Assembly: GCA_022447225.1 (NCBI GenBank)
Contig: JAKVAZ010000001.1
Location: 124,001-188,000 of the forward strand
Length of the DNA: 64,000 nucleotides
Direction: 5' to 3'
Origin: Fuerstiella sp.
GTDB taxonomy: Bacteria > Planctomycetota > Planctomycetia > Planctomycetales > Planctomycetaceae
The translations under genes were made by a program, and so were the position numbers. Positions 8,414 through 12,930 of the stretch are shown one piece after another. The notes under the pieces were generated by a model. The model ran no database searches. It was not told the origin of the DNA and saw nothing but the letters and a program-made list of their open reading frames with translations. The first letter of the stretch is position 1; each line of letters begins with the position of its first letter.

Positions 8414-9514
8414 ATGAAATACTTTTTCAGCTTATTCATTTTGCTGGTGTCGTTTGGTTGTTCTTCGGAAGAAAAACCGACCGGAAACGTCGTGGCACCG
8501 GAACCAGAAACCCAGACACCCGAAAAAGATGATTCCGCAGCGATTGATGTTCTTTCCCAAATTGGCGCACGCACAAAAAAGAACGCTGATGGTCTAGTTA
8601 TTGAAGTGAACCTGAGAAAAACGCAGGCGAATGATGAAACACTGCGTGCCATTGCTCCACTCAAACATGTCCGGGCATTGCTACTGAACGATCTGGAGAT
8701 TACAGATGCGGGCCTTGAGGTATTCAGTGAGGTCGACTGGCCACTGGTAAACCTGGACCTGCGCGGCTGTCCCGTTTCCAACAGAGGTCTGGCTCTGCTT
8801 ACCGAAGTTACTTCTCTCAAAGCACTCCGCCTGTCGGGGAGCAACAGCAGGACTTCCGTTGACGATGACGGCATGAGCGCCGTTGCCGCACTTAAAAATC
8901 TCAAAGTCCTGTCACTCGACAAACTTTGGATCACCAATACGGGTATCGAACGATTGCTGCCGCTCAACCAGCTCGAAGAGCTCTACCTGGCTGAAACCAC
9001 AATCGACGATGATGCCTTGATGTTGCTGGCAAAATTAGAAAACCTTCGCAAACTGCGATTATCAAAAAACCAGATTTCTGACTCGGGCCTGAAGCACCTC
9101 ACCAGCCTTGAGCAACTGGTTGAACTGGATCTCAGCGAAATTTCCCTGCTTTCTGATGAAGGGATGCAGCACCTGAGTGGTCTCACCACTCTGCAGAAAC
9201 TGAATTTATGGCGCGTTCCGGTGAGCAATTCCGGTGTAATGCAGCTCAAACCGCTTACCAATCTGGAATGGCTGAATCTGGACAACACCAGATTGTCTGA
9301 CGACGGATTATCGGCACTCGTCGAGATGAAAAAAATATCTTTTCTTCATCTCGGATCGACTCAGGTATCTGACTCGGGACTTCCACAACTGTCAGGTCTG
9401 ACCAGTCTCAAAGATCTTAAAGTCACACGAACAAGTGTATCAGCAGCTGGTGTAGCTGATTTACAAAAGAGCCTGCCCAACACAGAGATTCAGCTTGAGT
9501 ATATAGCCAAGTGA
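8414..9514 (+). CDS. Leucine-rich-repeat lipoprotein
   Basis: The 366-residue protein starts MKYFFSLFILLVSFGCSSEE, a lipoprotein signal with lipobox VSFGC and acylated Cys at residue 16. A low-complexity linker (about 17-45) precedes roughly ten leucine-rich repeats of about 24 residues. They have the pattern LxxLxxLxLxxTxIxDxGLxxL (for example SLEQLVELDLS, TTLQKLNLWRVPVSNSGV, TNLEWLNLDNTRLSDDGL). This is the RNI-like or cysteine-containing LRR type common in planctomycetes. It likely sits on the periplasmic face of a membrane and binds proteins or glycans; no enzymatic motif is seen. It has its own promoter region, shared with the divergent oxidoreductase, and ends just before the AT-rich spacer. 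Confidence 0.88.
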   Translation: MKYFFSLFILLVSFGCSSEEKPTGNVVAPEPETQTPEKDDSAAIDVLSQIGARTKKNADGLVIEVNLRKTQANDETLRAIAPLKHVRALLLNDLEITDAGLEVFSEVDWPLVNLDLRGCPVSNRGLALLTEVTSLKALRLSGSNSRTSVDDDGMSAVAALKNLKVLSLDKLWITNTGIERLLPLNQLEELYLAETTIDDDALMLLAKLENLRKLRLSKNQISDSGLKHLTSLEQLVELDLSEISLLSDEGMQHLSGLTTLQKLNLWRVPVSNSGVMQLKPLTNLEWLNLDNTRLSDDGLSALVEMKKISFLHLGSTQVSDSGLPQLSGLTSLKDLKVTRTSVSAAGVADLQKSLPNTEIQLEYIAK

Positions 9515-9859
9515 AATTCATCATGGTTTGTTGTTTATATTATCAACGAACCTGTTGATAACACGTTGCATTACCAACTAATGACCTGGACTAAACACCT
9601 AATTTTTCAACCAGTATAATTTCTGTTTGGTATGGGTATGGATAGTTAACTCTTTTATCAGACCAGTTCACCGGTCGTAATAAGGCAGGTTATCAACCGG
9701 TTATCAACACGATTTATTTCACTCATGTCATATATATAGCTGCCTGATGATGATTTTCGGTACCGGTTATCAACAATGGACGTCTACCTTATTACTATTG
9801 CTACTTAAAATTTTGTTTTACCTGTTCCCAAATCAACAACACCGACCAATCTTCCGTCA
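9515..9859. other. AT-rich spacer with a cluster of DnaA-box-like sites (possible replication origin or DnaA-binding locus)
   Basis: No gene lies here. The spacer is visibly richer in A+T than its surroundings. It carries five copies of TTATCAAC followed by A, C or G: 9540-9548 (+), 9553-9561 (-), 9690-9698 (+), 9701-9709 (+) and 9767-9775 (+). Three of them are exactly TTATCAACA, one base from the classical DnaA box TTATCCACA. AT-rich runs lie at 9729-9738 (CATATATATA) and around 9790-9830, where an unwinding element could sit. Typical origin neighbours (dnaA, dnaN, gyrB, parAB) are absent from this window, so a DnaA-titration or regulatory site is an alternative. Confidence 0.45.
9696..9775 (+). 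repeat. 14-bp direct repeat ACCGGTTATCAACA, two copies
   Basis: Identical copies occur at 9696-9709 and 9762-9775, 66 bp apart start to start. Each contains one exact TTATCAACA site with the same five-base upstream flank. The extended identity suggests conserved binding sites rather than chance. Confidence 0.8.
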
Positions 9860-11167
9860 TTATGACACTTCCCAGCCTGGATTATGATCTTTTGAAACAA
9901 ATGCTGTAGCTGTTTCTGTATTGGTAGCTCTGAGATTCGGTCCATCCCATTCCAGGGCAACACCAGATCGGTATGCAACATTTCCGAGCTGGACAGCTTC
10001 GGTCAGTGCACCGGAATAAGTGAAGTTACAGGTTGTGGGTGTCCCATTCATACACGCCTGAATCCACTCGTTGTGATGTCCCACAGAATCCGGAATTGAT
10101 TTTGGCGGTGGCACGAAACCAGCAAATTTTTCCTGGGGGAACAATCGGTACGAGCTGTAATCAGCAAACATCATTCCGTCACTCCCCACAAACATGACAC
10201 CATTTGCTTTGACACGCTGACCGTGAATTTGTTTGGGGATCATGTTTCCGTCGTACCAGGTCAAATCAAGAGCTGGATTTGTTTTGGTGGCCGGGAACTT
10301 GTAGTCGACCGTCAGACCGAGTGGACAGGAATCAGGATGCAGTTGAGGACCATGGGCGCGACAATAGGTGGGGCGAGTGAGATTCAGTGCCCAAAACGGC
10401 AGATCCATGAAATGACAGGCCATGTCACCAAGTGTTCCACTGCCGAAGTCCCACCATCGTCGCCACTGACCAGGATGATATAAGCCCTTTTTGAACGACC
10501 GGGCCGGGGCTGGCCCCAGCCACAGTTCCCAGTTCACGTGACCGGGGACAGGATCAGCTTGTTTTGGCCGTTCTCCGCCACCCCATGTCTTACCAACCCA
10601 AACATGGACTTCATTCACGTCGCCAATGGCTCCGCTCTGAATGATTTCAACTACTCGTCTATAGTTATCCCAGGCATGAATCTGGGTACCCATTTGAGTT
10701 GCTACACCGGCCTGTTCAGCAGCTTCTGCGATGATTCGAGCTTCCTGGACACTGTGTGTAAGCGGTTTTTCGCAGTAAACATGTTTTCCTGCCCTGAGCG
10801 CCCGAATCGTAGCGGGAGCGTGGTGATGATCAGGAGTTGCCACCACTACGGCATCGAATTTGTCTCCCATGCGGTCAATCATTTCTCTGTAATCAGAGAA
10901 ACCGGCTGGAGTCGCCCCATTATTTTCATGGATCATTTTTTGAGAAGCTGCCAGAAACTCACCATCGATATCGCAAAGTGCAACAATATTTTGCGACATC
11001 ACACCCTGAATATCGGCAACCGCACGATTGGCGGTGCCGATACAGGCGATATTCAGTTTGTCCAGGATCGATGAACCACGTCGGGCTTCAGCAAAACCGG
11101 ACGCGTATATGCCGGCGGCTACAGAAGCGGATGTATGAATAAAGTTTCGGCGGCTGAGCAAGGTCAT
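9860..11167 (-). CDS. Tat-exported Gfo/Idh/MocA family oxidoreductase
   Basis: This 435-residue protein begins MTLLSRRNFIHTSASVAAGI, a twin-arginine signal, then the Rossmann strand LNIACIGTANRAVADI. The family motif reads HVYCEKPLTHSVQEARI, with the EKP lysine near residue 136, and the segment VWVGKTWGGGERP follows in the substrate domain. This domain arrangement is frequent in exported planctomycete Gfo/Idh/MocA proteins. The ATG has an AGGATA Shine-Dalgarno eight bases upstream. Its 3' end faces the DnaA-box-like spacer. The redox role and sugar substrate are not deducible from sequence. Confidence 0.88.
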   Translation of the reverse strand: MTLLSRRNFIHTSASVAAGIYASGFAEARRGSSILDKLNIACIGTANRAVADIQGVMSQNIVALCDIDGEFLAASQKMIHENNGATPAGFSDYREMIDRMGDKFDAVVVATPDHHHAPATIRALRAGKHVYCEKPLTHSVQEARIIAEAAEQAGVATQMGTQIHAWDNYRRVVEIIQSGAIGDVNEVHVWVGKTWGGGERPKQADPVPGHVNWELWLGPAPARSFKKGLYHPGQWRRWWDFGSGTLGDMACHFMDLPFWALNLTRPTYCRAHGPQLHPDSCPLGLTVDYKFPATKTNPALDLTWYDGNMIPKQIHGQRVKANGVMFVGSDGMMFADYSSYRLFPQEKFAGFVPPPKSIPDSVGHHNEWIQACMNGTPTTCNFTYSGALTEAVQLGNVAYRSGVALEWDGPNLRATNTETATAFVSKDHNPGWEVS

Positions 11168-11310
11168 GGTGAGTATCCTGTGGGGCAGGCAGTGTGAAAC
11201 GGTCTACACGATAAGCGGAGAGAACGGCAGGCGGCAAGTCTTGTTCGGAAGCTCCATGACCACATACGAAAATATTGTTTTTAACTGCGGGCACAGTTAC
11301 CCCCAATAAA

Positions 11311-12930
11311 ATGAGTGAATACACAGATAATCTGATTGTGGGCCAGGGACTGGCAGGAACAACGCTGGCGTGGAGTCTGCTGGACTGCGGGCAGAGTGTC
11401 GTGCTGATAGACAGAGGAGAAACTGCTACAGCATCCAGAGTTTCTGCCGGACTGGTCACTCCCTGGACCGGTCGTCGAATGGCGCAGAGTGATGACTATC
11501 AGGATTACTGGGACACAGCCGTCAGATTCTATCGATCAATTGAAAATCGACTGAAACAGCGACTGTTTACTGAAGGGCCTATGGTACGTGTTTTTGTTAA
11601 TCGTTCGGAAGAATCTGTTTTCTACAAGCGGAAAGCTGTGGCAGCAGAGGGGGCCCTCAAATCATGGTCCGGCAAACTCCAGTCTAACGGGCCGTCTTAC
11701 GCCGGTTGCTGCATGCAACCGGCCGGGCGACTGGATGTACGGCGCTATCTTCAGACGTCAGTAGACTATTTCAGTCAGCGAGGTCTGTGGTTCCGTTTGA
11801 ATCTGGACATACCGGATGGATTGTTGCTGCAGTCGGATCAGGTGGAATTACCGAAACTTGGCCTGACAGCGAAGCGGATCATTTTCTGTCAGGGAGCCGC
11901 ACAGAATCCGTGGTTTGAAGGAGTGCCAAATAATGCATCTCGGGGAGATGTTATCAATGTCCGACTGGATGATTATGTTATGCAGGACGTGGTGCATCAT
12001 TCCGTGTGGCTGGCACCGGAACGGGACGGAAGCATTACGGCAGGATCCACATACGACTGGGAATTTGCGGACAACGCACCAACAGCAAAAGGTCGTCGAC
12101 AAATTCTTAAAGCAATGGGTCGGTTTATCGACGGCAACATTCGAGTCCATCGACATGCAGCAGCAGTACGTCCGACGATGAAAGATTACCGTCCGGTCAT
12201 TGGTCGTCATGGAATCCACAGTTCAGTGTACATATTCAACGGTCTTGGATCTCGGGGAGTTTTGACAGCACCCAGGCTGGCGGAACAGCTTGTGGAGTTT
12301 TTAACGGGGCAGCGGACCAAACTACCTCATCAAATCACCCCGGATCGTCTGCGTAATGAACAGTGGAAAGAATCATTGACACAAGTTGCCCAGAATCGCA
12401 TGGCAAGCGTACTGAGTCACGGAGACGTTGTGATTGATGCGACGGTCGGTAATGGATTTGATACCTGTTTTCTGTCAGCGCATGTGGGGCCCGCCGGGCA
12501 TGTTTACGGATTTGACATACAGCACCAGGCCATCCAGGCCACTCAAAAACGACTGAACGCAGCACAGCTGACGAATGTTAAACTGTTATCGTACAGTCAC
12601 GCTGAGATCAGCCGACATGTGACAACATCAGTCAGTGGAGCTATGTTCAATCTTGGATATTTGCCACGAGGTGATCATTCAATTGTAACCCAGGCAGACA
12701 GCACAATTACCGCCCTGAAACAGTTACAGCAACTTCTTAAACCGGGGGGAATGATCACAGTACTGGCGTATCGCGGGCATGAAGGAGGCCCGGAAGAAAC
12801 GGGAGCGGTGGAGAGCTGGCTGCAAGAACAAACCGAGTGTCTGGTGGAACGTATTGACAGCCATCAGAGCAGGTCAACCTCACCGATATTGTTTATACTG
12901 GTGAAGCGATCACAACAAACGGAAAAATAG
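11311..12930 (+). CDS. FAD-dependent oxidase (DAO/MnmC2-like) fused to MnmM-type tRNA 5-aminomethyl-2-thiouridine methyltransferase
   Basis: From ATG 11311 the protein has 539 residues and two domains. Residues 1-345 are a DAO-fold FAD oxidoreductase, with dinucleotide motif GQGLAG at 11-16, AGSTYDW at 244-250 and the C-terminal FAD motif GLGSRG at 311-316. Residues 355-535 match the YtqB/MnmM methyltransferase family: SAM motif DATVGNG at 376-382, FNLGYLPRGDHSIVT at 446-460 and YRGHEGG at 487-493. MnmM methylates nm5s2U to mnm5s2U at tRNA wobble position 34. In E. coli MnmC a DAO domain makes that nm5s2U from cmnm5s2U. The domain order here (oxidase first) is opposite to MnmC and the methyltransferase is unrelated to MnmC1. 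The likely role is both last steps of mnm5s2U synthesis; this is inference. A glycine-oxidase-like activity is the alternative for the N-domain. Confidence 0.82.
   Translation: MSEYTDNLIVGQGLAGTTLAWSLLDCGQSVVLIDRGETATASRVSAGLVTPWTGRRMAQSDDYQDYWDTAVRFYRSIENRLKQRLFTEGPMVRVFVNRSEESVFYKRKAVAAEGALKSWSGKLQSNGPSYAGCCMQPAGRLDVRRYLQTSVDYFSQRGLWFRLNLDIPDGLLLQSDQVELPKLGLTAKRIIFCQGAAQNPWFEGVPNNASRGDVINVRLDDYVMQDVVHHSVWLAPERDGSITAGSTYDWEFADNAPTAKGRRQILKAMGRFIDGNIRVHRHAAAVRPTMKDYRPVIGRHGIHSSVYIFNGLGSRGVLTAPRLAEQLVEFLTGQRTKLPHQITPDRLRNEQWKESLTQVAQNRMASVLSHGDVVIDATVGNGFDTCFLSAHVGPAGHVYGFDIQHQAIQATQKRLNAAQLTNVKLLSYSHAEISRHVTTSVSGAMFNLGYLPRGDHSIVTQADSTITALKQLQQLLKPGGMITVLAYRGHEGGPEETGAVESWLQEQTECLVERIDSHQSRSTSPILFILVKRSQQTEK

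Follow-up and report, generated by a model that had tools for sequence, protein, structure and literature searches.

The analysed window comprises 64,000 bases (bases 124001-188000) of contig C1 (608,954 bases), which belongs to a marine planctomycete genome of 5.43 Mb in 33 contigs. Among named relatives, Fuerstiella sp. ALOHA_ZT_14 came out nearest, its Gfo/Idh protein being 87% identical. Within the window, a 345-bp intergenic spacer separates a gene for a leucine-rich-repeat (LRR) protein from a convergently oriented gene for a Gfo/Idh/MocA-family oxidoreductase. The spacer has a G+C content of 36% vs 50-54% in the neighbouring 10-kb bins, which bears out its earlier description as AT-rich. 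A search of positions 9300-10100 against Rfam gave no match. The features of the locus, in window coordinates, are as follows.

8414-9514, plus strand: flanking gene for an LRR protein, a neighbour conserved in relatives
9515-9859, no strand: entire intergenic spacer (345 bp), proposed oriC, between the convergent LRR (plus) and Gfo/Idh (minus) genes
9540-9548, plus strand: candidate DnaA box 1 (TTATCAACG), left half of an inverted pair, kept in some relatives
9553-9561, minus strand: candidate DnaA box 2 (TTATCAACA), in inverted orientation, separated from box 5 by 213 bp (201-215 bp in relatives)
9690-9698, plus strand: candidate DnaA box 3 (TTATCAACC), tandem partner of box 4 at a distance of 11 bp, without regular conservation
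9701-9709, plus strand: candidate DnaA box 4 (TTATCAACA), 66 bp upstream of box 5
9767-9775, plus strand: candidate DnaA box 5 (TTATCAACA), the box belonging to the unwinding module
9789-9806, plus strand: six DnaA-trio triplets, TTA TTA CTA TTG CTA CTT, 13 bp after box 5
9791-9813, no strand: AT-richest 23 bp of the spacer (83% A+T), a putative unwinding region that overlaps the trios and continues past them
9860-11167, minus strand: flanking gene for a Gfo/Idh/MocA-family oxidoreductase, a neighbour conserved in relatives
11275-12930, plus strand: next gene, a ThiO-like oxidase fused to an MnmM-like methyltransferase, often adjoining Gfo in relatives

The product of the last gene combines a ThiO-like glycine oxidase domain with an MnmM-like tRNA methyltransferase domain and has near-full-length matches in many relatives.

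The sequence TTATCAAC occurs in the window at 9540-9547 (plus), 9554-9561 (minus), 9690-9697 (plus), 9701-9708 (plus), 9767-9774 (plus), and 26043 (plus). The first-pass annotation had reported a cluster of five such sites, three of them TTATCAACA and one inverted, as well as a single further copy in the window; all are present where it placed them, and the cluster exceeds chance. Over the whole window, the count of six compares with a shuffle mean of 1.34 and a maximum of 5, while 2,000 dinucleotide shuffles of the 345-bp spacer, where five copies are observed, averaged 0.034 copies and never gave more than 2. Contig C1 (609 kb) harbors 18 copies in total, and C1:327579 is the sole other place on it with two copies inside 250 bp. 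There, an inverted TTATCAACA pair at C1:327579-327622 (L008:7579-7622) encloses AATCAACA, and the region is possibly DnaA-regulated. Across the genome, TTATCAACA is enriched, with 41 occurrences vs 12 for the reversed pattern.

Box 5 is followed, after 13 bp, by the six triplets at 9789-9806, which are 3′-NAN-5′ when read on the opposite strand. The bacterial basal unwinding system described in PMC8287927 consists of a DnaA box and three or more DnaA-trios of the form 3′-NAN-5′, most commonly 3′-GAT-5′, with a short spacer between box and trios. In the same source, the box-to-trio spacer has its peak around 10-13 bp, the search having been limited to 16 bp. Judged by its sequence, the ensemble of box 5, trios, and AT-rich stretch is of this published type. 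A weight matrix for the box-trio module, built without sequences of the window's genus, gives the site 37.9 bits, the only match above 5 bits on either strand of the 609-kb contig. When the box columns are removed, the site still ranks first of 1,217,792 positions, with 20.0 bits vs 10.7 bits for the next separate place. The box cluster had been noted earlier, but the trio array and the fixed 213-bp layout were absent from that account.

The layout that recurs in relatives is an inverted DnaA-box pair, approximately 213 bp, TTATCAACA, 13 bp leading to DnaA-trios, and an AT-rich stretch, and the LRR-Gfo spacers of relatives carry TTATCAACA boxes in matching positions. Only boxes 2 and 5 recur regularly; boxes 1, 3, and 4 are found in part of the relatives, and a box-like sequence lies near the box 4 position in many of them. 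The pattern GTTGATAA-N190..220-TTATCAAC is present in 26 of the 170 genomes of the family. A trio-like array (a CTA/TTA/CTT run) follows the last box in 21 of these 26, and an LRR and/or Gfo gene lies within 1.5 kb in 20 of the 21. The pattern matches in G025, G028, G107, G151, and G159 have no trios and look like chance. A tandem-only pattern, TTATCAAC-N0..30-TTATCAAC, was abandoned in favor of the spaced inverted one, as it fell mostly on unrelated sites (16 of 170 genomes). A DNA similarity search with the whole spacer returned only the spacer itself and two 23-bp matches in genus g10, which map to separate portions of the spacer and were regarded as fortuitous.

An alignment of 22 rows was assembled from the 21 trio-bearing genomes and G016, in which the last box is TTACCAACA. 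Its rows share TTATCAACA, a variable spacer, NTN triplets rich in CTA and CTT, and T-rich DNA. Under a strict test, which asks for at least three consecutive NTN triplets at the scanned distances, 18 of the 22 rows pass; in the four that fail (L131, L145, L147, and L152), a CCA interrupts the array. Putative origins of the LRR-Gfo kind are found in the genera designated g1, g6, g7, g24, and g50.

An additional inverted motif, CGTAA...TTACG, is observed approximately 20-60 bp before the last box in L204, L209, L211-L213, and other LRR-Gfo sites. TTACG occurs in 11 of 25 LRR-Gfo sites vs 2.5 expected and in 4 of 23 dnaA/dnaN sites vs 1.8 expected, both expectations being derived from mononucleotide shuffles. 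The motif is absent from the window's own spacer. A possible role is that of a site for another origin protein.

A sequence-only profile, R1, was trained solely on the 22 LRR/Gfo-type sites and searched in the 170 family genomes. It yields 25 strong matches (E<=1.3e-6), spread over 24 genomes. Of these genomes, 22 are training members; the matches beyond training are those in G018 and G130 and a second copy in G127. Within 1.5 kb of 24 of the strong matches, both LRR and Gfo genes are found in 17 cases, LRR only in 4, Gfo only in 2, and neither in 1. The 50 weaker matches (E 1.7e-4 to 0.3) are distributed differently: 28 are next to dnaA and/or dnaN, 3 are next to Gfo, and 19 adjoin none of these genes, and at E<=0.01 the respective numbers are 16, 1, and 1 (n=18). 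In seven complete g10 genomes, the match is located at record base 1326-1392, between dnaA and dnaN. DNA beside dnaA or dnaN is the usual place of oriC; therefore, R1 recognizes presumed origins that were absent from its training. At E<=0.3, a single match is obtained in the window's own genome and likewise in G014, a complete relative, and nothing is found in 106 of the 170 family genomes. A further search covered 37 genomes, none of them with a match at E<=0.01, and only 7 gave any match at E<=1. An order-wide search covered the 170 genomes of the family search again and added nothing. The same-genus genome G099 lacks TTATCAAC in the 16.2 kb analysed around Gfo, and R1 does not match it either, not even in a search restricted to a smaller set of genomes and run with relaxed filters. 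The comparison with related genomes that had been proposed at the outset is favorable across genera but not in G099, where the site is absent.

The dnaA-dnaN-linked origins of g10 (L225-L227), g35 (L230), and g48 (L234) likewise have a DnaA-box-like sequence followed by this trio array (CTGATACTACTACTACTAAA or a close variant). The g10 origins differ from the window site in that their box is closer to TTATCCACA. The dnaA genes beside the g10, g35, and g48 origins are divergent, those of g10 and g48 being short and without a detectable domain I. Specifically, the dnaA beside dnaN in g10 and g48 (L225-L228 and L234) encodes 341-346 aa with no detectable DnaA_N domain, and the g35 frame (L230) encodes 443 aa, likewise without this domain. 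The three of these proteins that were tested (L225, L230, and L234) score under the NCBIfam DnaA cut-off.

In the window's own genome, dnaA is located on contig C4 and dnaN at C1:353.9 kb, approximately 220 kb from the site, such that the site adjoins neither; the first-pass annotation was correct that both genes are missing from the window. The 3.5 kb around dnaA contain no TTATCAAC, and the region around dnaN (C1:350.8-357.0 kb) contains neither TTATCAAC nor a trio array. Domains I, III, and IV are present in the encoded DnaA (521 aa), as is the helix-turn-helix motif GGRDHSTV. None of the 24 genomes with a strong site has dnaA next to it: 23 carry the gene on a separate contig, and in G014 it is 2.44 Mb distant. 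The G014 record begins with dnaA at its very start, and its first 6 kb hold no dnaN homologue and no trio array.

Strand skew was assessed in G014, a single contig of 8.92 Mb, from 40 stretches of 20 kb (9% of the genome). The best two-break fit places one break at 6.40-6.55 Mb with T-A or combined skew, or at 6.175-6.40 Mb with GC skew alone; the homologous site is at 6,481,038-6,481,259. On contig C1, which contains the window, the site lies at 133.6 kb. The T-A change point is at 155 kb (bootstrap 120-215 kb), and the gene-strand-corrected third-position sum has its optimum at 156 kb but fits almost as well at 134 kb (bootstrap 70-164 kb). For GC skew alone, the change point falls at 75 kb (bootstrap 60-105 kb), as it does for the simple sum (65-90 kb). 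As the latter two intervals exclude 133.6 kb, the own-contig skew supports the region rather than the base. Both skews switch sign between 75 and 155 kb, flanking the site. The G+C content is approximately 55-58% over C1:1-110000 and mostly 50-55% beyond, with a step near 110 kb, which may disturb the GC-skew change point. On the question raised earlier, of whether the skew minimum might lie elsewhere, G014 thus agrees well with the site, while the own contig agrees only roughly, its GC-only change point being off.

Other explanations for the cluster have been weighed against these observations. The spacer could be a DnaA-titration or DnaA-reactivation locus of the E. coli datA/DARS type, in which case the true origin would be somewhere else; the first-pass annotation had allowed for titration. 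The remoteness of the boxes from dnaA and the GC-only skew change 58 kb off the site on the own contig are in keeping with such a locus. However, loci of this type need neither a trio array nor a melting region, whereas the window site has the complete box-spacer-trio module; its profile matches the dnaA/dnaN-linked sites, R1 finds just one place at E<=0.3 in the own genome and one in G014, and the skew of G014 switches at the homologous site. A titration or reactivation locus is therefore very unlikely.

Ordinary transcription-factor operators that resemble DnaA boxes by accident are harder still to credit. The inverted pair TTATCAAC-N6-GTTGATAA does resemble a dimer site, but an operator would explain neither the rigid 201-215 bp spacing to the box-trio module nor why the profile also matches dnaA/dnaN sites. 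Furthermore, the spacer lies between convergent gene ends, and thus no gene start faces it. That the boxes cluster by chance is barely conceivable. AT-richness (36% G+C) would favor fortuitous matches, yet same-spacer shuffles never exceeded two copies, as opposed to five observed, and the arrangement is conserved across genera, so that the controls already refute this explanation.

The spacer is very probably the chromosomal replication origin, oriC, an assignment made from sequence comparison. It is favored by the conserved position and architecture, the trios beside the last box, the cross-match of R1 to dnaA/dnaN sites, and the skew switch in G014. In the proposed mechanism, DnaA would bind the TTATCAACA-type boxes, and an ATP-DnaA filament starting from box 5 would extend rightward onto the single-stranded DnaA-trios. 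The filament is predicted to open the AT-rich stretch at approximately 9789-9813, where helicase would be loaded and replication would proceed in both directions. Assembly of the complex may be aided by the inverted pair at a distance of 213 bp and by the box at 66 bp. This mechanism is already known; the novelty lies in the site, in the TTATCAACA boxes it carries, and in its separation from dnaA and dnaN. Computational support is strong for a DnaA-dependent oriC, in itself a common type of element, in an unusual location that several genera share.

In other genera, the module is kept at dnaA-dnaN or at dnaN, and hence the origin appears to have moved in the LRR-Gfo group. In the own genome and in G014, DnaA is full-length and unlinked from the proposed origin. 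It is tentatively suggested, as a possibility that falls short of being probable, that a move within the family from a dnaA-dnaN site to the LRR-Gfo site was accompanied by a change in the initiator: full-length, unlinked DnaA in the LRR-Gfo group, as opposed to a shorter or divergent DnaA lacking a detectable domain I beside the dnaN-linked origins of other genera. On this view, the unwinding module persisted as the box shifted towards TTATCAACA, and initiator and origin may have been re-matched or replaced together.

If the oriC assignment is right, the site would be a start point for shuttle plasmids and for growth-rate (peak-to-trough) estimates in these bacteria. It would also mean that several related genera carry an origin away from dnaA and dnaN with the unwinding module retained. 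A circular record begun at dnaA, as in the case of G014, need not have its origin at base 1. No description of the oriC of this planctomycete family was found in the titles and abstract openings of open-licence papers, although an earlier computed prediction, for instance in DoriC, may exist.

Origins apart from dnaA occur in E. coli, Caulobacter, and some cyanobacteria. These unlinked origins have other neighbours, whereas the window site has LRR and Gfo/Idh genes. In Kuenenia, another planctomycete, PMC7709395 places the origin at dnaA by GC skew. As for the box, TTATCAACA appears as one box in Cyanothece (PMC4674748) and as a candidate DnaA box in a phytoplasma, where the source itself doubts the motif (PMC3322544). 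The Mollicute-type box TT(T/A)TCAACA (PMC3322544) has the same base change from TTATCCACA, in an unrelated phylum. The closest likeness in design described in these sources is the Bacillus subtilis type of oriC (PMC8287927), which shares with the window site a DnaA box, a 13-bp spacer, at least three NAN trios on the other strand, and AT-rich DNA. In contrast to that type, the window site employs TTATCAACA rather than TTATCCACA as its box and adjoins neither dnaA nor dnaN.
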